A DNA stretch of 13,594 nucleotides from Pseudomonadales bacterium. Its GTDB lineage: Bacteria > Pseudomonadota > Gammaproteobacteria > Pseudomonadales > DT-91. Below, in pieces: positions 937-13,594 of this stretch. The position numbers were made by a program, and so were the translations under genes. The notes beneath the pieces were generated by a model. The model had not been told where the DNA came from, made no database searches, and saw nothing but the letters and a program-made list of their open reading frames with translations. Within the stretch, counting starts at the first letter, position 1. The number at the start of each line of letters is the position of its first letter. The stretch covers positions 13,022-26,615 of the forward strand of contig JABSRR010000024.1 of assembly GCA_013215025.1 (NCBI GenBank). The letters are read 5' to 3'.

Positions 937-969
937 TGCCTATCATCATGAGCGTTGTTGCTAGATTCT

Positions 970-2031
970 ATGGGAAAAATTAGATTTTTACTCGCCGCGT
1001 CGGTTGTTGTTTATCATAGCCACGCGATTCTAGGCTTTGAGTTTGTAGGTGGAAAAATAGCAGTTGAGCTGTTTTTTATTATCTCAGGCTTTTACATTGC
1101 GATGATTTTGGCGCAAAAATATCAACAGCAGTTTTGGGTATTTTTCAGTAATCGACTGCTGAAAATTTTCCCTTGCTACTGGTTAATTGCTGGCATTTCA
1201 GCGCTACTCTATGCCTTGGTAGTAAACCTTAATATCATCCCTGAATTTACTGCTGCTTGGCAGCAGCTTGATGGCCGAAATTTTATATTATTCATGCTCA
1301 GCAATATTTTTATTATTGGTCAGGATATTTTTATGTTCACCGGGCTTGATCCTGAGACTCAGCAGTTTTATTTTGCCCCCGCATTTCACAGCAATCAGCC
1401 GGGTGTTTTACACTTTTTATTTGTTCCTCAGGCTTGGTCAATCTGTTTAGAGTTTTGTTTTTATGCTATCGCACCATTTGTTGTACGGCGACGATTGGTT
1501 GTGATTCTGAGCCTACTCACGCTCAGTCTGTTAATTCGTTTCAGCTTATTTTATAAAGGCTATTATGATGACCCCTTTAGCTACCGTTTTTTTCCGAGTG
1601 AATTATGCTTTTTCTTACTTGGCGTATTAAGCTTTCGAGCTTACCAACAAGGCTGGATAATCTCATCTACTCTGATATCTAGGCTGTCAATTGTAATCTT
1701 CTGCCTATTAATTTTGGGGTTAAAAAATATTATTGCTCAACCCAGTGAGTGGATCAGCTGGGTGATTTATATCTCTTTTGCAGCACTGTTGCCGACATTT
1801 TTTAACGCGGAGAAATCCAATAGATTTGATCGATTTATCGGTGAATTATCATACCCGATCTATATATCGCATGTAATGATCATTTTTATGATAAGACCGT
1901 TTATACAAACCGAGCTATGGCAATATCGAGGTCTAATAACGTTATTATTAAGTACCATATTGGCCATGATCTTAGTGAAATATCTTATGCAACCCATTGA
2001 TCGTATTCGCCAACAGCGCGCTGAGCTTTAA
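970..2031 (+). CDS. Acyltransferase family 3 (AT3) integral membrane protein
   Basis: A polytopic membrane protein of about 353 residues. The N terminus has the AT3 pattern KIRFLLAASVVVYHSH, with the conserved His of the first membrane segment. It is followed by GGKIAVELFFIISGFYIA, which matches the usual 'VxxFFxISGF' segment, and about ten hydrophobic helices; near the C terminus is SYPIYISHV, the late AT3 signature. Such proteins move acyl groups (often acetyl) across the inner membrane onto sugars of LPS, exopolysaccharide or other glycans; the substrate here is unknown. ATG 970 fits the family N terminus; in-frame TTG codons at 955 and 958 would add five or four residues, and TTG 958 has a GAG six bases upstream. 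No clear Shine-Dalgarno precedes 970. The gene begins 33 bp after the GTPase stop, so it may be cotranscribed. It is visibly richer in A+T than its neighbours. Confidence 0.88.
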   Translation: MGKIRFLLAASVVVYHSHAILGFEFVGGKIAVELFFIISGFYIAMILAQKYQQQFWVFFSNRLLKIFPCYWLIAGISALLYALVVNLNIIPEFTAAWQQLDGRNFILFMLSNIFIIGQDIFMFTGLDPETQQFYFAPAFHSNQPGVLHFLFVPQAWSICLEFCFYAIAPFVVRRRLVVILSLLTLSLLIRFSLFYKGYYDDPFSYRFFPSELCFFLLGVLSFRAYQQGWIISSTLISRLSIVIFCLLILGLKNIIAQPSEWISWVIYISFAALLPTFFNAEKSNRFDRFIGELSYPIYISHVMIIFMIRPFIQTELWQYRGLITLLLSTILAMILVKYLMQPIDRIRQQRAEL

Positions 2032-4461: not shown

Positions 4462-5487
4462 TTAAAGCTGCGCGATAAATTGCTGCCAAATAGTTTCTAC
4501 TTTTAATTCAGCTAAACACAGCGGCTGCGATTGCGCATTATTTTTAGCGCAGCTGCGTCGGTAACATGGCTGACAATCGATCAGCTCAGCTGAGGTCATC
4601 TGCATCGCATGCGGTCCTGTGGCAGCAATCAATGCAGGGTCTGTGGGGCCATAAACGGTTACAGTTGGCTTCGCCAAAGCCGCGGCAATATGTGCCAAGC
4701 CGGTATCATTGCAGATAGCCCCCTCACTGTGCTGCAACAATACGGCAAGAGCTGACAGTGATAAGCGAGGCAATACCGTTGCATAATCAAGCCCGGCCGC
4801 TAATCTTAGGCAGCGCTGCTGTTCTGACTGACTACCCCAAGGCATCAAGACTTGATAACCCTGCTCGTTGGCCTGCGCCAATAGTAAACGCCAATGCTGC
4901 TCAGGTAAGCACTTTGTCGCCCAGCTAGCATTCGTCACAAAGACTAAAAAAGGCTTATCCGGCAAAGCTATGCTGAGTGCATCAGCGTGCAATGCAGTGA
5001 GGCCAAAATTGATATCGCCAGTAACTGTATAGCCAAATGCATCTGCACATAAATGTCGCAGCCGTTCAATTGCCAGCTGATTGCGCGGTGCTGATATGGC
5101 TACATCATAGGCTAAGTAAGCCGGCTTTTCGCGCACCGAAGCCTTATCTGCGCCGATCCGCTTACCTTTCGCTATGCGGGTAACCAATGCCGACTTGAGA
5201 TTACCTTGTAAATCTAAAACAACGTCATACTGCTGCCGCCTGATTTGCTTCAGAGTTTGCCTAATATCGCCCGAAACCAGACTCTGCCAGATACGCCTTT
5301 TCCAACGCCGATGCGCAGTGGGAATCACCTGATTGATCGCAAAATGCCATGCCGGCACTTCAGCAAAGCCCTCATCAACAACCCAGTCGATAATAGCGTT
5401 CGGATAGTGCTGCGCAATATCGCTAATAGCTGGCAGCGCCTGCACCAGATCGCCCATCGAGCTTAGCTTAACAATTAGAATTCGCAT
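4462..5487 (-). CDS. waaC: LPS heptosyltransferase I (WaaC/RfaC, glycosyltransferase family 9)
   Basis: The protein has 341 residues (E. coli WaaC has about 320). It transfers L-glycero-D-manno-heptose from its ADP-sugar to Kdo of the LPS inner core on the cytoplasmic side of the inner membrane. The N terminus MRILIVKLSSMGDLVQALPA carries Asp13, the catalytic base position of WaaC. The segment DWVVDEGFAEVPAWH and VIPTAHRRW match heptosyltransferase I rather than WaaF. The C-terminal ADP-heptose site is NDTGLAHIAAAL with Asp261, then VTVYGPTDPALI. The end has clustered cysteines (CQPCYRRSC and a later Cys), also seen in several GT9 members. It is the first gene of the minus-strand operon and its stop overlaps a possible next start. 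No strong Shine-Dalgarno precedes ATG 5487. Confidence 0.9.
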   Translation of the reverse strand: MRILIVKLSSMGDLVQALPAISDIAQHYPNAIIDWVVDEGFAEVPAWHFAINQVIPTAHRRWKRRIWQSLVSGDIRQTLKQIRRQQYDVVLDLQGNLKSALVTRIAKGKRIGADKASVREKPAYLAYDVAISAPRNQLAIERLRHLCADAFGYTVTGDINFGLTALHADALSIALPDKPFLVFVTNASWATKCLPEQHWRLLLAQANEQGYQVLMPWGSQSEQQRCLRLAAGLDYATVLPRLSLSALAVLLQHSEGAICNDTGLAHIAAALAKPTVTVYGPTDPALIAATGPHAMQMTSAELIDCQPCYRRSCAKNNAQSQPLCLAELKVETIWQQFIAQL

Positions 5488-6342: not shown

Positions 6343-8061
6343 TCAGTTTGCGTCAATCTTGCTAAAACGCTCTGAATGCCATCGGTAAAAGTTCAACGGC
6401 TGCGGGGCATCCAGCCAGATTTGACTGACTCGACCTGCTGCATTCAATGCTTTAATGGTTATAGCAATATGCTCTGCGACAGTAACAGTCTGGCCTATGC
6501 GAAACGGCTGGCGCGCTTCATTGCGCATCAGTACGTCGTCTGCATCAAAAATGCCATCAGCATGACTAAGCTGGTATCGCCAAACTGTCTCCGATGATAA
6601 ACGCTGAAGATCTAGCTGAGACCGAGAAGATATATTTAATAATAATTTAGGAATCGCTTGCTGTTGATAAAGTGATATTGGACTGAGATATGCAGCAATA
6701 AATACTGGCATGCCTAAAGTCACGATATATTGTTGCTGTGGCAGTTGTCGAACTGCGGACTCAGCAGGACTAGCTAACAATTTAGGTGCATACGACATCG
6801 GTATTAACACCATCGCCGACACCATTAAATGCCCAGCCAGAAGCAACAGCGCTAATGGGGTTAACACCAGACGGGTGCTTAGATTTAAATGCTGCTCCCT
6901 AGCATGGGCTAATGTTTGTAAGATGCGATAGCAACAATCAGCCAGCAATATCGAACTGCCGATACTGGCAAACAGTAGATTACGCTCCTGTATTTCTGCA
7001 CTCAGCACCGGAAAAATAGCCAACAGCATAATACTTAGTGCAGCAATATTGTGTCGCTGCCTAAACACTGCCACATACAGCACACTGGCAAATAATAGCA
7101 AGGCACCCAGCAATACGTTGAGCGATTGCAAGGCGGGAATATGATACAAAGGCAGAGGGTTCAGCAAGATCGAAACCGCCATCGCGAATCGCTCAGGCAG
7201 TTGTGACAGATAAAAGCGCAACTCGGACACAGGGTCTGCATAGTATGCAAGATTACCACGTGCGCCGAAATCTGAGCCTTGATATAGCCAAAGCCAGGCG
7301 ATAAACACCAGCAACGCTATAAACATTAGAACAGCCATAGGCCTCACCGAGCGTGCTTCAGACGGAATAGCGATAATGCTTGCCAACAATAGCACGCCAC
7401 TGCAGATACCCAACTCTCCAGACATAAATGCGGCCAGCAAAAAAATCACGAATAGCGCGGTGCGTTTTGCACATAACATCGCGCCTTGTGACAGGCTAAT
7501 GAATTGATTGGCGGCCAACAAGCTAAACGCCGTTGCCATGATAGCGTTGCGATTTGCCAACCACGCTAAACTAAATCCATGCGTCGTATCTAAGGCAAAA
7601 AACAGTAAACTAAATGCCAGCAGTTGCGGTGGCAAAATAGTCTTAAACCACTGCTTAAGGCCCCACAGCAATAAGGCAAACCAGAATAATGAATGCAGAT
7701 GCATCAGCCAGGGCTGCTTAAGCCAGCGATAATCAAGCCAATGTGTTAGCTCAGCCAATGGACGCCAGAACACCATATGAAACGTTTCTACAGTCCACCA
7801 TGGCAGTACCGATTGTGCCATTAGCTGTTGCCGTCTCGCTGCGTCTTCGGTGACAAAAGTAAATAGATTTGCCACCGTGGGCGTATCTGGCTGAAGAATG
7901 GTTTCAGGCGCCAGATCCTGCAGAATCACCGCATGACTATAATCATCAGCAAACAAACCGGCAGCCAGGCTTGGTAATACCATGATCACAGCCAATATAA
8001 GCGGCCATTTAGCATCTAATGCAACGACGCGATTCAATAATGCTGAAAACAGACGAGTCAA
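6343..8061 (-). CDS. Polytopic membrane protein, GT-C-like putative glycosyltransferase
   Basis: The protein has 572 residues with roughly ten to twelve hydrophobic helices. After the first helix is FADDYSH with Asp39-Asp40, the position of the acidic pair of GT-C glycosyltransferases, which use lipid-phosphate sugars and act on the outer face of the inner membrane. Next comes FWRPL (98-102), HWLDYRW and HLHS (121-124), a pattern common in GT-C proteins, then a loop with WLANRNA (167-173). The last about 140 residues form a soluble, probably periplasmic domain. No close named family was recognised and the substrate is unknown. The start is TTG 8061, chosen because AAGGAG (8071-8076) lies nine bases upstream. 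It is divergent from the lipopeptide synthetase, so it might decorate that product or a surface glycan; this is inference. Confidence 0.7.
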   Translation of the reverse strand: MTRLFSALLNRVVALDAKWPLILAVIMVLPSLAAGLFADDYSHAVILQDLAPETILQPDTPTVANLFTFVTEDAARRQQLMAQSVLPWWTVETFHMVFWRPLAELTHWLDYRWLKQPWLMHLHSLFWFALLLWGLKQWFKTILPPQLLAFSLLFFALDTTHGFSLAWLANRNAIMATAFSLLAANQFISLSQGAMLCAKRTALFVIFLLAAFMSGELGICSGVLLLASIIAIPSEARSVRPMAVLMFIALLVFIAWLWLYQGSDFGARGNLAYYADPVSELRFYLSQLPERFAMAVSILLNPLPLYHIPALQSLNVLLGALLLFASVLYVAVFRQRHNIAALSIMLLAIFPVLSAEIQERNLLFASIGSSILLADCCYRILQTLAHAREQHLNLSTRLVLTPLALLLLAGHLMVSAMVLIPMSYAPKLLASPAESAVRQLPQQQYIVTLGMPVFIAAYLSPISLYQQQAIPKLLLNISSRSQLDLQRLSSETVWRYQLSHADGIFDADDVLMRNEARQPFRIGQTVTVAEHIAITIKALNAAGRVSQIWLDAPQPLNFYRWHSERFSKIDAN

Positions 8062-8290: not shown

Positions 8291-11200
8291 ATGTCAAGCT
8301 CAGACGCTGTCAACCCGAATACATCTCCACACGCCGCAAAACATCTGATTGATGTTTTATATTATTGGGCACAGCACAGCCCTTCGCATGAAATGCTGCG
8401 TTTTTACCCGCAAGGCGAAGTCAGTGAAAGCTACCAAAGCCGCACTTTTTTGCAATTTTATCAACGTGTCTACAGCATTGCTAAAACCATAGAAAACCAG
8501 CGCGGCGAGCGTGCTATTTTATTTTACCAGTCAGGCATCGGCTTTTTAGAAAGTTTATTTGCCTGCTTTATGGCTGGCGTCACTGCGGTGCCGGCCTACC
8601 CGCCGCGCAAAAACCAAAATTTAGATCGTATCACTGCCTTATTTGATGACTGTGCGCCGAGCATTATTCTCTCAGCCGACGGTATACAAGCGCAATCTGC
8701 ACAGGCGCTGGCACAAATATATGTCAGCAGACCCGAGCTTGAAACACTACCATGGCTTAACACCGACACTGTCAGCCTAGAAGGGTTGCAGCATGTCTCC
8801 GAGACAACTATTGATCTTGGATTAATCCAGCCAGAGCATATCGCGTTTTTGCAATATACCTCCGGTTCAACCGGCACCCCCAAAGGGGTTATGGTGAGCC
8901 ACCACAATCTGATCAGCAATATTCGTATGGCCGAGCATAATTTTGCCCTGCCTAACGACACGCGCTGCATATCTTGGCTGCCACTGTTTCATGATATGGG
9001 CTTAATCGGTGCAGTGATGATGCCAATGTACTGGGGTGCAGGTTCTTGGCTAATGCCGCCCGCTGCCTTTTTACAAAAGCCAGTGCGTTGGCTGCAGCTG
9101 CTCAACGAGGCTGGCAAAACGTCCCATGTTGCCTCCGCCTCACCTAACTTTGGCTATCAACTCTGCATCGACCAAATCAGTGATGCGCAGCTTGAGGGTA
9201 TCAATTTGTCAAACTGGTGCTTTGCTTTGAATGGCGCCGAACCGATTCGACCCGATACAGTTCAAGGCTTCATTCAACGCTTTGCCGATTATGGCTTCTC
9301 AGAAGCCGCGATGGGGCCATCTTACGGCATGGCGGAATGCACACTGCTAGCAACAACGAGACGGCAAAACCCGATAGCATCCATTGACGTCAACACCTTG
9401 TCGCTAAGCCAAGATCAACTAAAGCAAAGTAGCAGCCGCTCAGTATCAACCACCAGCCTTAACAGCTCCGGCAGCTCCTGTAGCGAACAAATATTACGCA
9501 TTGTCGAACAAGGCAAGATTGTCGCTGACGGACAGGTCGGTGAGATTTGGCTCAAGGGCGAGCATATCGCTCAAGGTTACTGGCAAAAACCTGAGCTTAA
9601 CGCAGCAACCTTTGCTGCTTATGCAGTAGGTGATGATGGCGAGGAAGGCCCTTTTTTACGCACCGGAGATCGCGGCGCGCTCGTAAACGGCGAACTTTAT
9701 ATCACCGGCCGCAGCAAAGATATGTTAGTTATACGCGGTCGAAATTTATACCCACAAGATATCGAATACACCGCATCACACGCCAGTGAAAGTTTTCAAG
9801 TGGATGCTGCCGCTGCATTTTCTATTACTGAGGCTAATGACGAAAAGCTGGTAGTAGTGCAAGAAGTGGCAAGGCAACAGCGCAAAAACTTTGATGCAGT
9901 AAATGCCGCTAGCATAATTCGCAAGGCTATAGCGCGCGAACACGGTGTTGAAGTTGCTCATATAGCTTTTATTCGTTTTGCCAGCATCGCGAAAACCTCG
10001 AGCGGCAAAATACAGCGTTTCAAATGTAAAGAGCTTTACCTGAACAAACAGCTACGCCTTATCGATGACTGGCATATAAAAGCGCCCACTGCCGACTCAG
10101 ACAAAACCGCGATCGCATTACCAGAGCCCAGTCAGCTTTTCGCAAACCCGATCAATGCCCATAAAATACTTAATCGCTTTATCCAACAATTTATTGCTTT
10201 ACGACTATCGGTAGATACAGACGCCATCTCTATACATGAAAGCCTGCAGGCCAGTGGCTTAGATTCTATCGATATCATCCAGCTCTCTGCAGCCCTTGAG
10301 CGCCAGCTTGATTGCCAATTAGACCACCAGTTATTTATTGACAGTGAGAATATTGACCAGCTTAGTCAAGTCGTTCTTCAGGCCGTATTGAACCATGCTT
10401 CAGCTGACACACCACAAACTTTAGCGGCCACAGGCATAAACTTACCAGAACAGACTTTCCCTGTTAGTATAAGCCAGGCTGCAATGTTCAGTGCGCAAAA
10501 CGAAGAACCTGATAGTTATAACTTTAACCTCTTAGCGCTGGCTGAAATTAAGCAAGATATTTCTCAGCTGCAGATTGAGCAGGCCGCGAAACAACTACTA
10601 CGAATGCATCCGGTACTAAGCGCTAGCTTTAAAACTCACAGTTTTGGCGACGCTAATATTACGCAAAATTATCAGCAGTCGCATATACAGCATGCCCTGC
10701 ACATAGCGCAGTGTTTCAAAGCCGATAGAGAGATAGCGTTAAGCCATATCACCCTCAAGCCACAAGAAAATATCACCACATATGCAAGAGATTGGTCTCA
10801 GACAGCGTTTCATTTAGAACATGATGTGCTCGTTCGTCTGGCAATTATTCATCAAGCAGAACAGCGGTACCTAGCGATCTGCGCCCATCATATCGTATGT
10901 GACTTTATCGGCTTACATAATGTATTAAGCGACCTGCAGCATCTAATCCACAACCCTAATTATCAAGGCCAATCCAAGGTCTCTCAAGCAGCAGACTTCG
11001 CCCACATCAATCAAACGCAATTTACCCGTGTTGAGCAAGGCATTGCCTGTTTGAGCGAGCAAATCAGAGACACGTTTAGCCAAAACTTCAGCAACGTGAA
11101 CTTCACAGGTTTTTCAACACGGCTGCAATCTCCCGATAAGCAATTTGGAGATCATCAGCGCTCAAACAAAGCGGCTGAACATACACTCAACTTAGATCGG

Positions 11201-13594
11201 AACTTGCTGAATCAACTTGAAAGCCAAGCAAGCCAGCATGGATATACGGTTTATCATTGGTGCCAAGCTATTTTTGCCTGTTTATGCGCCAGGCTTAATC
11301 AAGGCAAACAGTTTGTTATCACCACACCACTGGCAAACCGACACGGCAAAAGCTTGCAGGCAGCGGGTCATTTCACCAACCCTTTACCGCTCGCCTTCGA
11401 TTTTAGCAAGCTCAAGTATTTCTCTGACATTCTGTCACAGACCAAACAAGCCAGCGATGCCTTATACAGCCTTCAAGATCTGCCAAGTGAATGGCTCAGC
11501 GACGCATTTGAAATCAATAGCAATATTGCCTTCTCATTTAATCGCGTTGACGATGAAGCACTAAGCGGTGAGCTATATCACAGACTGTTACTGGCCGAGC
11601 AACAAGGCCATACACATGACTTAGTGCTAACCGGCTTACACCAAAAAGCTGAAAGCTTGCAGCTAAACTGGCGTTACCGCAGCGAGTTAATAAGCCCTGA
11701 GAATATTCAGCGCCTGGCCAAGCTCTATCTTCAGCTATTGCAAGCATCTTTATCTGATGATGCCTTTGAGCCACTCAGCTTCAGGCTTTTAAGTGACGAC
11801 GAGCTGGCCATCATCAAACAAAGCAATGCCACAGCCGCTCGCTTCGATGCTGACAATCTTGCCGCACAGTTTATCCAAGTGGCGCAAAAAAACCCTGAAC
11901 ATGTGGCCCTAATCATCCCTGCCTCCGTGCAGCAAAGTTTATCCCATGACGACAATCCAACCGTATTCGAGGACAAAGTCTTTAGCTATCAGGCCTTGCT
12001 CAGCTTAAGCGCTAGCGCACAGCAAAGTATGTTAAGGCTAAACTTACAGCAAGGTGAGCGTATTGCTTTATTTGTAGAACGTGATGAACATTACCTAAGT
12101 TTATTATTAGCGGGTTTAGCGTGCGGCTTATGCATAGTGCCTATTGATCGACAATTTCCTGAAGATCGGATCAACTTTATGCTAGATAGCGCAGATGTTA
12201 GCGCTATATTTTGCTATGAGGCAGATACAGCGATTTTTCAACATAGAAAAGTAATCAGTATCGAGGCCATCCACGAACAACAGCAAAGCGTAGAAAACGC
12301 TCAGCCACTGCATTGCCTTGCCACGCATCCGGAGTGCATTAATTTTATCTTTTTCACCTCCGGCTCAACAGGCAAACCAAAAGCCGTTCCGGTCACGCAA
12401 CAAGCTGTTGCTCGCCTGACACACCATAACAAATTTTTCAGCATGCAAGCCGCTGAGCGTTGCCTTTTCGCGTCTAATATTTCATTTGATGCAACCAATA
12501 TTGAAATCTGGCAGAGCTTATTAAACGCAGCGTGTCTGGTTGCGGTCGACAAACTTAGCTTTGCTTCACCACAGCTACTTGATCAAATTTTTCAGCGTTA
12601 CAAGATTGATCACGCCTTTCTGACAACCGCGCTGTTTAATGTATTACTGGCTTACAAAGGCAATATATTCTCGCGCTTTACTACCTTGATGTTTGGCGGT
12701 GAAGCCTGTGATAACAGCAGCATCGAGATTTGCATTCAGCAAGGCAAACCGAAGCACTTACAACATTTATATGGTCCAACCGAGAACGGCTCGATCAGCA
12801 CCTGCCAGCCGCTAACGATTAACAGTTTTCACAAAAATGCGCTAACAGCTATTGGCACCGCCACGGGCAATACTTCAGCATGGATTATCGATGCCTACAA
12901 CAATCTTCAAATCCCTGGCGCACTCGGTGAAATCGTCCTCGGCGGCCCTGCGGTATCACCGGGCTATCTGACAGCAGCATCGGCTGATATGCGCTATAAG
13001 CAAAGTATAGATCAGCTTAACCAGGATAAGTTTACGCAAAAGCTTTTACCCGACAATATCTCGGCGCACCAACAATTTTACCGCACCGGGGATTATGCCT
13101 TTACCGACAGCCTAGGCAGCATTTATTTCGCCGGGCGCATCGATGATCAAATAAAAATTCGCGGTTTTCGGATTCAGTTAGGGGAAATTTTACAGCAGCT
13201 ACTCAGTCTTGACGCCGTTAAACAAGCCACGGTCATCGTAGATGCCGAAAACGCTGATCATGCTGAAAAACAACTCATTGCTTACATAGTGCCGACAATT
13301 AAGGGAGACGAGCAAGAGATTGTTCGCGCTATTAGAACAGCGCTGACTGAAAAGCTGCCGCACTATATGCTGCCGCAGCATTATTTGCTGCTAGAAAACC
13401 TACCGCTTAATGCAAATGGTAAAATCAACAAAGCTCTATTACCCAAGCCCGAAAAACAAAACCAAGCGGCCAATATTGATCTCACGCAATTAACTCAAAC
13501 TGAAGCTCTGTTACTGGATATATGGCAGACGCGTTGTAAGCTCAATGTTAGCAGTATTGATGATAATTTCTTTGAGCTCGGTGGTAGCTCATTA
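8291..13594 (+). CDS. Nonribosomal lipopeptide synthetase, FAAL-ACP-C-A-PCP, 3' truncated
   Basis: A continuous frame of 1768 codons without a stop, running off the window. Domains: fatty acyl-AMP ligase (about residues 20-595), acyl carrier protein (622-703, Ser659), condensation domain (723-1160, HH at 866-867), adenylation domain (1167-1720) and the start of a peptidyl carrier protein ending at FFELGGSSL with Ser1767. The order is that of a lipoinitiation module: the FAAL activates a free fatty acid as acyl-AMP and loads the ACP; the C domain joins the acyl chain to the amino acid activated by the A domain. The enzyme should be cytoplasmic and needs a phosphopantetheinyl transferase. ATG 8291 is the only ATG/GTG/TTG start after the in-frame stop at 8267-8269; it lacks a clear Shine-Dalgarno. 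Downstream modules, release domain and tailoring genes are outside the window, so the product is unknown. Confidence 0.93.
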   Translation, partial: MSSSDAVNPNTSPHAAKHLIDVLYYWAQHSPSHEMLRFYPQGEVSESYQSRTFLQFYQRVYSIAKTIENQRGERAILFYQSGIGFLESLFACFMAGVTAVPAYPPRKNQNLDRITALFDDCAPSIILSADGIQAQSAQALAQIYVSRPELETLPWLNTDTVSLEGLQHVSETTIDLGLIQPEHIAFLQYTSGSTGTPKGVMVSHHNLISNIRMAEHNFALPNDTRCISWLPLFHDMGLIGAVMMPMYWGAGSWLMPPAAFLQKPVRWLQLLNEAGKTSHVASASPNFGYQLCIDQISDAQLEGINLSNWCFALNGAEPIRPDTVQGFIQRFADYGFSEAAMGPSYGMAECTLLATTRRQNPIASIDVNTLSLSQDQLKQSSSRSVSTTSLNSSGSSCSEQILRIVEQGKIVADGQVGEIWLKGEHIAQGYWQKPELNAATFAAYAVGDDGEEGPFLRTGDRGALVNGELYITGRSKDMLVIRGRNLYPQDIEYTASHASESFQVDAAAAFSITEANDEKLVVVQEVARQQRKNFDAVNAASIIRKAIAREHGVEVAHIAFIRFASIAKTSSGKIQRFKCKELYLNKQLRLIDDWHIKAPTADSDKTAIALPEPSQLFANPINAHKILNRFIQQFIALRLSVDTDAISIHESLQASGLDSIDIIQLSAALERQLDCQLDHQLFIDSENIDQLSQVVLQAVLNHASADTPQTLAATGINLPEQTFPVSISQAAMFSAQNEEPDSYNFNLLALAEIKQDISQLQIEQAAKQLLRMHPVLSASFKTHSFGDANITQNYQQSHIQHALHIAQCFKADREIALSHITLKPQENITTYARDWSQTAFHLEHDVLVRLAIIHQAEQRYLAICAHHIVCDFIGLHNVLSDLQHLIHNPNYQGQSKVSQAADFAHINQTQFTRVEQGIACLSEQIRDTFSQNFSNVNFTGFSTRLQSPDKQFGDHQRSNKAAEHTLNLDRNLLNQLESQASQHGYTVYHWCQAIFACLCARLNQGKQFVITTPLANRHGKSLQAAGHFTNPLPLAFDFSKLKYFSDILSQTKQASDALYSLQDLPSEWLSDAFEINSNIAFSFNRVDDEALSGELYHRLLLAEQQGHTHDLVLTGLHQKAESLQLNWRYRSELISPENIQRLAKLYLQLLQASLSDDAFEPLSFRLLSDDELAIIKQSNATAARFDADNLAAQFIQVAQKNPEHVALIIPASVQQSLSHDDNPTVFEDKVFSYQALLSLSASAQQSMLRLNLQQGERIALFVERDEHYLSLLLAGLACGLCIVPIDRQFPEDRINFMLDSADVSAIFCYEADTAIFQHRKVISIEAIHEQQQSVENAQPLHCLATHPECINFIFFTSGSTGKPKAVPVTQQAVARLTHHNKFFSMQAAERCLFASNISFDATNIEIWQSLLNAACLVAVDKLSFASPQLLDQIFQRYKIDHAFLTTALFNVLLAYKGNIFSRFTTLMFGGEACDNSSIEICIQQGKPKHLQHLYGPTENGSISTCQPLTINSFHKNALTAIGTATGNTSAWIIDAYNNLQIPGALGEIVLGGPAVSPGYLTAASADMRYKQSIDQLNQDKFTQKLLPDNISAHQQFYRTGDYAFTDSLGSIYFAGRIDDQIKIRGFRIQLGEILQQLLSLDAVKQATVIVDAENADHAEKQLIAYIVPTIKGDEQEIVRAIRTALTEKLPHYMLPQHYLLLENLPLNANGKINKALLPKPEKQNQAANIDLTQLTQTEALLLDIWQTRCKLNVSSIDDNFFELGGSSL
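8348..10075 (+). other. FAAL domain of the synthetase
   Basis: Residues about 20-595. The P-loop YTSGSTGTPKG is at 189-199. The FAAL-typical WLPLFHDMGLIG starts at 229, and GPSYGMAE is at 342-349. RTGDRG is at 457-462, followed by GELYITGRSKDML, and IRGRNLYPQDIE ends at 492. SSGKIQR has the catalytic Lys573. HDMGLIG together with RGRNLYPQDIE distinguishes fatty acyl-AMP ligases from amino-acid A domains and from acyl-CoA ligases. A serine-rich stretch (380-397, 10 of 18 Ser) lies before the EQILRIVEQGK strand, where family members have a short VSCG-like loop. Acyl chain length cannot be read from the sequence. Confidence 0.9.
10154..10399 (+). other. Acyl carrier protein domain of the synthetase
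   Basis: Residues about 622-703. A four-helix carrier fold is suggested, with the core GLDSIDIIQL; Ser659 (10265-10267) is the expected 4'-phosphopantetheine site. Its position directly after the FAAL indicates it receives the fatty acyl chain. Confidence 0.88.
10457..11770 (+). other. Condensation domain of the synthetase, divergent C3 motif
   Basis: Residues about 723-1160. C1-like SISQAAMF is near 726, and C2-like MHPVLSASF follows. The C3 active-site motif is HHIVCDF (866-872), with the catalytic second His867 and Asp871 kept but Phe in place of the usual Gly. The C5-like motif is GHFTNPLPL, and NIAFSFNRV lies near the C7 position. Upstream acyl-ACP implies a starter-type domain that N-acylates the first amino acid. 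Confidence 0.85.
11789..13450 (+). other. Adenylation domain of the synthetase
   Basis: Residues about 1167-1720. A3 FTSGSTGKPK is at 1355-1364, A4 FDATNIEIW has Asp1400, and A5 LYGPTEN starts at 1493. A6 is GEIVLGGPAVSPGYL and A7 YRTGD. A8 is GRIDDQIKIRGFRIQLGEI, and A10 NANGKINK has Lys1711. By alignment to GrsA by eye, the ten specificity positions read D, A, I, F, M, G, L, S, I, K. Asp at the first position indicates an alpha-amino acid, and the nonpolar lining suggests an aliphatic side chain (leucine- or isoleucine-like). The exact residue is not certain. Confidence 0.88.
13475..13594 (+). other. Peptidyl carrier protein domain, cut by the window end
   Basis: Residues about 1729 to the last codon. 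The sequence LTQTEALLLDIWQ is the usual first helix, and DDNFFELGGSSL is the phosphopantetheine motif with Ser1767 (13589-13591). The window stops one codon after this serine. Confidence 0.9.

Follow-up and report, generated by a model that had tools for sequence, protein, structure and literature searches.

A FAAL-led synthetase gene in a Pseudomonadales draft genome as the probable start of a conserved lipopeptide assembly line

The synthetase gene at the end of the window, as we call the whole stretch of 13,594 nucleotides that was analysed, probably encodes the loading module plus elongation modules one and two of a conserved NRPS line, the product of which would be an N-acylated, hydroxyl-rich peptide. 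FAAL-led NRPSs are a known kind of system, while the line itself appears to be undescribed within the plasmid records, the GTDB scan, the PDB and the literature searched. The coordinates of the features are collected in Table 1.

The gene begins in the window as an ATG-initiated frame, for which a previous reading of the sequence alone had described FAAL, ACP, C and A domains and the start of a PCP; the frame listing of the window and Pfam both agree with this. The same reading had stated that the full gene is longer than the window. On the extended contig the frame runs on without a frameshift and ends about 3.5 kb beyond the window, giving a protein of 2942 amino acids, of which the window holds the first 60%. 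A stop or frameshift just past the window, which would have spoken against the original description, was looked for and neither is present up to codon 2942. One ambiguous base occurs at gene position 5305 (base 5617 of L012), and the window stops directly before it.

In the full protein Pfam recognizes three AMP-binding, two Condensation and three PP-binding stretches, in the domain order FAAL-ACP-C-A-PCP-C-A-PCP, followed by an acidic, Asp/Leu-rich tail; it finds nothing 3′ of the last PCP, neither a thioesterase nor another release domain. The part within the window contains two of the AMP-binding stretches (366.5 bits for the whole protein), the PP-binding match (50.1 bits), the first Condensation match (102.3 bits), an AMP-binding_C match at residues 1636–1711 and a DIP2-like AMP domain at residues 477–591. 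The C, A and PCP domains stand in module order and carry the catalytic motifs HHIVCDF and HHIIADG. Because a frame of 1768 codons carries these domains in order, chance is no realistic account of it. The G+C content of the gene is 0.455, compared with 0.458 for the contig's first 13.1 kb.

Table 1. Position, strand and characteristics of the features discussed (window coordinates unless a locus, L, or contig, C, is given)
Feature	Position	Strand	Remarks
Synthetase gene, 5′ part (1768 of 2942 codons)	8291..13594	+	Open at window edge; stop at C24:30140
FAAL domain (residues 18-594)	8342..10072	+	Best solved relatives 7r7e, 3kxw and FadD32/23/28 entries
ACP (residues 631-694)	10181..10372	+	PF00550; phosphopantetheine motif GLDS
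C1, putative acylating condensation domain (residues 720-1169)	10448..11797	+	Pfam and C-domain tree; active-site motif HHIVCDF
A1 with C-terminal subdomain (residues 1197-1711)	11879..13423	+	Pfam; specificity code DAIFMGLSIK
Start of PCP1, running on past the window	13433..13594	+	Domain calls on the full protein
572-aa integral membrane protein, predicted GT-C fold	6343..8061	-	Structure model; divergent from synthetase
EgtD, EgtB and PhzF-like genes	L012:9144-12352	-	EgtD and EgtB over NCBIfam ergothioneine cut-offs
C-C′ tandem modules	L014:12471-13781 and L015:7708-9030, and relatives	- and +, respectively	C′ before homoserine-type A

By its nearest relatives the N-terminal domain is a FAAL and not a CoA ligase. 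Among solved structures, residues 1–600 are closest to 7r7e (titled as a polyketide synthase, 431 bits) and 3kxw (359.7 bits), followed by three entries titled “Acyl-CoA synthase” (5d6j, 5icr and 7wua; 277–289 bits), which we take to be FAALs of the FadD32 type, and by the entries titled FadD32, FadD23 and FadD28 (about 214–279 bits). Other entries with CoA synthetase or ligase titles reach at most 71 bits among the best 60 of 96 matches. The NCBIfam FAAL models match the synthetase below their whole-protein cut-offs. A possible gauge of the FAAL-specific insertion, the span from the YGxAE motif to TGD, measures 104–108 residues in four of the six FAALs of the family (motif not found in G002 and G005), 115–122 in three of four other FAALs (not found in G032) and 75–77 in two of six ligases of the genome itself, the measurable ones; it is not specific for FAALs because the A domains of NRPSs span 79–100 residues. 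A FAAL is present in all six genomes of the family (G000, the source genome, to G005).

The condensation domain that follows the ACP, C1, groups with four acyl-to-X1 C domains of the sister genus (support 100/100) on a long branch, X1 being the first amino acid, and the motif HHxxxDF is found in C1 of G000, G001, G002 and G004. Its grouping with C domains behind an acyl carrier indicates that C1 is an acylating, starter-type domain. The description of the gene as a FAAL-led lipoinitiation module is thus borne out at the level of sequence relationships, with 7r7e, 3kxw and the FadD entries nearest and the ACP and C1 behind. Of the accessory proteins that the sequence-only reading had named, a phosphopantetheinyl transferase has one match in the source genome and MbtH has none in the six family genomes.

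The proposed core-genome setting beside yeeN and waaC-lpoB was also confirmed, as one flank of the synthetase codes for heptosyltransferase I, a YebC/PmpR-family protein, LpoB and YlqF. Directly downstream of the synthetase follow convergent genes for EgtD, EgtB and a PhzF-like protein, and a LipA-like protein is encoded on this flank too. Both G000 and G002 have, by eye, carB-carA-moeA-moaA-mobA and TRAP transporter genes ahead of the FAAL locus. An acyltransferase-3 family protein is encoded at 955–2031 (+) of the window, within a few kilobases of the gene for heptosyltransferase I.

Next to the synthetase gene lies the gene for a membrane protein that, judged by a structure model, is probably a GT-C glycosyltransferase. 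The predicted structure has the GT-C fold: its first 430 or so residues are mainly helices, and several strands lie in the part behind them; residues D39 and D40, invariant in all five rows aligned, would lie in the first extracytoplasmic loop. The gene adjoins the FAAL gene, divergently, in four of the six family genomes (G000, G004, G001 and G003), and in G001 it sits between the FAAL gene and another synthetase. Matches to the protein were obtained at 44 places; among the 19 inspected, 12 are near NRPS genes, including the six best-scoring, and seven are away from them (G000:C46, three on G002:C1, two in G032 and G049:C404). All 11 genomes with a match below 1e-40 are among the 14 of 56 genomes that have six or more NRPS matches, an association for which the cut-offs were picked after seeing the data and kinship is uncorrected, with NRPS match counts per genome being lower bounds (five candidates scored per genome).

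The GT-C protein may hence belong to the lipopeptide pathway, and a glycosylated product is plausible because the predicted GT-C protein adjoins the FAAL in four of six genomes. To a reading that keeps the synthetase as described and assigns the GT-C protein to the modification of LPS or the envelope, with no role for the lipopeptide, we give somewhat less than an even chance. The heptosyltransferase I gene is only 0.9 kb from the GT-C gene in the window, and this proximity speaks for an envelope function, as do the seven inspected places away from NRPS genes and the neighbourhood, by eye, of some places to acyltransferase-3-like proteins; the divergent arrangement with the FAAL gene in four genomes, the position between two NRPS genes in G001, the 12 places near NRPS genes with the six best-scoring among them and the confinement of the strong matches to NRPS-rich genomes argue against it.

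A known counterpart of a GT-C protein in a lipopeptide pathway is Ram29 of ramoplanin biosynthesis, a GT-C mannosyltransferase of a lipopeptide from an actinobacterium (PMC4635501). Ram29, too, spans the membrane as a GT-C protein, has its C-terminal part outside the cytoplasm and is encoded with a lipopeptide NRPS; the likeness to the window protein is one of fold and context. A literature search for a GT-C-glycosylated lipopeptide from a Gram-negative bacterium gave the ramoplanin paper only. Downstream of the 2237-aa synthetase gene of G002 there is a gene for a 573-aa membrane protein with 19% identity to the window GT-C protein and no Pfam match above the cut-off. A second, distant GT-C paralog of the source genome (L097:5068-7017, +) stands beside genes of thiamine type, by eye, and has a counterpart in G002 (L100) with similar surroundings. 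Acyltransferase-3-like proteins were also seen by eye near GT-C paralogs in G032, G049 and G016.

The window gene is not self-contained, for it stops after two elongation modules and carries no domain for release, with the rest of the line elsewhere in the draft. It would be the start of a longer line, in which the order of the contigs is taken from relatives. Further C-A-PCP modules had been anticipated, and they exist, one as the second module of the same gene and others in synthetases on the contigs C40, C45, C200 and C57. The source genome is a 96% complete draft of 2.78 Mb in 353 contigs, and its 16 Condensation matches, 15 of them over the cut-off, fall on these four contigs and on C24, the contig of the window. 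The ends of C200 and C57 have 60 identical bases in common. Those of C45 and C200 share 530 bases at 95.7%, and this junction is less sure because the overlap is not identical. C57 ends inside its last PCP, and the start of an A-PCP gene on C40 is also cut by the contig end.

The relatives show how these pieces may belong together. The clusters of G002, G004 and G005 consist of a separate FAAL-ACP gene (694–696 aa), a C-A-PCP-C-A-PCP gene (2212–2238 aa), a C-A-PCP gene (1117–1118 aa) and a C-A-PCP-C-C′-A-PCP gene (2666–2684 aa), where C′ is a second, divergent C-type domain. For G002, we used the FAAL frame with its stop after codon 696 and a separate frame of 2237 codons (other listings give 3028 and 710). 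A second locus in G002 and G004 adds one or more C-A-PCP genes and a five-module gene of 6638 or 6605 aa that ends in a TE, a label that came initially from a profile of G002's own end and was then tested with Pfam (Thioesterase, 109.6 and 110.5 bits). With the TE last, the line of the sister genus reaches 12 modules in G002. The same kinds of genes are found in G001 on two contigs, cut at the contig ends; G003 entered the comparison as fragments only and G005 without its second locus.

A tree of the 60 C-type pieces longer than 300 residues, out of 62 from G000, G001, G002, G004 and G005, places 12 of the 14 C-type domains of the source genome with a counterpart at the same position in the sister genus; C2, for example, groups with the second C domains of the sisters (support 100/99). 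The two rows without a positional counterpart, the first C domain and the C′ domain of the second C45 gene, cluster with the sisters' Ser-to-Hse module and resemble an additional copy. Conversely, no domain of the source genome pairs with the sister module that reads DAWL/DALL. The C-terminal tails of the proteins correspond as well, RDTGFI ending the second C40 protein as in G004, FEEGVL the first C40 protein (FEEGIL in the sisters) and ESFTL the first C45 protein (ESFVL in G002). Within the second module of the window gene, the relationships differ from domain to domain. A2 has 48% identity to the Ser domains of G049 and G020, against 32–38% for the Thr domain of the sisters. For C2 these two sets of relatives score about the same (35–37%, 31% in G001), and for PCP2 those of G002 and G005 come first (56%). 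Replacement of the A domain would explain this mismatch, and shared specificity could do so too. The simplest reading is one inherited line in which a module was exchanged and which is scattered over the contigs of a draft.

A thioesterase, another part that the sequence-only reading had named, thus stands at the end of the line in G002 and G004, while no NRPS-type TE was found in the source genome; the four PF00975 matches there (28.8–37 bits, cut-off 26.4) are in separate frames of 277–561 aa and could be free-standing hydrolases. Such frames would suit an alternative in which the window gene acts alone and makes an acyl-X1-Ser dipeptide that is freed spontaneously or by a trans-acting hydrolase, and the genes that follow on the contig are indeed named for ergothioneine and lipoate biosynthesis and are not NRPS genes. 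We consider this unlikely. The gene has no release domain, the sister 2237-aa protein has a similar acidic tail, and the equivalents of the gene in G002, G004 and G005 lead further clustered synthetases that have counterparts in the source genome.

In the longer line, the FAAL would adenylate a free fatty acid and hand the acyl group to the fused ACP. C1 would join the acyl chain to X1, activated by A1, and C2 would add serine, selected by A2 (code DVWHISLIDK). Via the acidic C-terminal tail, acyl-X1-Ser would then pass to the synthetases on C40, C45–C200 and C57, and a terminal TE, present in two sister genomes and unseen in the G000 draft, would release the chain. Against such a line count its division over five contigs with an order taken from relatives, the non-identical C45–C200 overlap, the two rows lacking positional counterparts together with the missing DAWL/DALL module, the strong divergence of C1 (branch length 2.38) and the lack of an NRPS-type TE among the matches in the source genome. 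We nevertheless regard it as probable.

The ten-residue codes of the A domains were read from a common alignment, at positions set by the numbering of GrsA. Putative readings as Ser, Thr or Asn follow the usual code tables. The A1 code (DAIFMGLSIK) gave no assignment, the A2 code is read as Ser, and one domain of C45–C200 (DATKVGEVGK) as Asn-like. The contigs give Ser, Hse, C′-Hse for C40, Ser, C′-Hse, Asn-like for C45–C200 and C′-Hse, Ser, C′-Hse for C57. Arranged in the order of the relatives, the source genome would yield acyl, X1, Ser, Ser, Hse, C′-Hse, Ser, C′-Hse, Asn-like, C′-Hse, Ser, C′-Hse; the sister reading is X1, Thr, Hse, Hse, C′-Hse, Ser, (Ser in G002), Y, Ser, C′-Hse, Hse, C′-Hse-TE. 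The predicted lengths are eleven residues in G000 and twelve in G002. Codes of the form DLKN(V/L/F)G(S/T)DVK denote homoserine according to the available parts of PMC12283262 and PMC7524897. Those of the family end in GMDIK, GHDIK or GNDIK and are similar, not identical, to the published ones; because of this difference, activation of homoserine by the DLKN-type domains is probable rather than sure. The predicted product, with substrates and chain length deduced from the codes, is an N-acyl, Ser/homoserine-rich undecapeptide, most likely a membrane-active lipopeptide or biosurfactant.

Four modules of the source genome carry a C′ domain directly 5′ of the A domain. Throughout the family, the A domain behind C′ is of the DLKN type in 13 of 13 cases and that behind a plain C in 11 of 34 (one of the 11 cut after DLK). 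In the other genomes fetched, which are no random set, the numbers are 6/9 after C′ and 4/25 after plain C. C′ was recognized by a profile built from three domains of the source genome, and four A domains of G025 and G032 that follow a second C-type domain unclaimed by this profile were counted under plain C. The HH...D motif is kept in all nine aligned rows, and the predicted structure is a C-domain fold (model pLDDT 77.5).

Interface domains, which recruit hydroxylases, take a C-C′-A-like position in the module and would be the known analogue of C′. The available part of the antiSMASH 8 paper mentions them with siderophore beta-hydroxylases. TauD hydroxylases have no match in G000 (96% complete), G001, G003 and G004 (98, 93 and 84%), and those matched in G002 and G005 are on contigs apart from the NRPS genes. 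Ornithine/lysine hydroxylases match over their full length (E 1e-110 or better) in G001 and G003 alone. G000 has two short partial matches (E 1.7e-4 and 4.5e-4), counted as over the cut-off within their frames, and this enzyme family is matched in 12 of 14 control genomes. An acyl-peptide siderophore line in which C′ recruits an aspartate beta-hydroxylase is therefore very improbable, for although the C-C′-A order recalls interface domains and acylated marine siderophores such as the marinobactins exist according to the part of the literature available, all 13 family A domains behind C′ are of the DLKN type, read as homoserine and not as an aspartate code, and four genomes including the source genome lack a TauD match.

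Going further, it is conceivable, if rather unlikely as a whole, that the family makes undescribed Gram-negative glycolipopeptides. These would be FAAL-started, Ser/homoserine-rich acyl-undeca- to dodecapeptides, with C′ as a new tailoring domain of the C superfamily that acts on chosen homoserines or recruits an enzyme to them, and with the GT-C protein glycosylating the exported lipopeptide on the outer face of the inner membrane. Should the proposed line itself be real, one bacterial family has retained a large inherited lipopeptide system next to core genes. Comparison domain by domain would then show how such a line changes, with its starter fused here and split there, a module gained or lost, and the C domains staying in register while the readings of the A domains change (Ser/Thr, Ser/Hse, Ser/Asn), and the C′ domains and the GT-C protein would be two directly testable tailoring steps.

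That the gene matches no named pathway had been stated from the window, and no named pathway with this module string emerged from the plasmid records, the pattern-based scan of GTDB genomes, the PDB or the literature searched. Near-identity to a known lipopeptide cluster was likewise not encountered. The 20 best places listed in the plasmid records are 26.2–29.5% identical and all 2197 records are under 60%, and the GTDB scan gave three distant relatives (30–34%) in Micromonospora, Aquabacterium and Paenibacillus. Turnercyclamycin, a beta-hydroxyaspartate lipopeptide of Teredinibacter turnerae, is of a similar size class as the predicted product, with a doubly charged ion near m/z 787 (available parts of PMC12971057 and PMC9692312). 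The source genome differs by lacking a TauD match and by C′ modules that read homoserine.

Known systems feed the acyl chain into the line after a FAAL has loaded it onto an ACP, and they do so either with a FAAL-ACP didomain, as in hapalosin, or with a FAAL fused to the NRPS, as in vioprolide (available part of PMC11837247). Both forms occur in the family studied here. FAAL-ACP is fused to the first bimodular part in the window gene and is a separate gene in the sister genus; unlike in known FAAL-led lines, the two forms are thus found in apparently orthologous lines within one bacterial family. In a FAAL tree the six family FAALs form one clade (100/100), its root left open, with four FAALs of other families, all of them fused, as the outgroup. 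The direction of change cannot be polarised because of this root and the four fused outgroup FAALs.

Docking by pairs of a SLiM and a beta-hairpin (TubC_N) domain is described in the available part of PMC13324335, and similar elements are present here. All four synthetases tested have TubC_N at the N-terminus (the 2238-aa protein of G005, both C45 proteins and the 2706-aa C40 protein), and C-termini are short acidic/hydrophobic tails, the sister FAAL-ACP proteins ending in DIEGFI, ELEGFI or EGFL. In the sister genus, such a tail and a TubC_N domain would connect FAAL-ACP with the synthetase that comes next. Unlike these, the window gene lost, or never had, the pair at the FAAL-ACP/C1 junction: a short linker leads from the ACP to C1 without such a tail, and Pfam finds no TubC_N in the fused protein of 2942 amino acids. 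Fused FAAL-ACP-(C-A-PCP)2 genes also occur in other families of the order, in G025 and G032 (L068/L069, L070/L071 and L087/L088), where long lines containing tandem C domains come after them.
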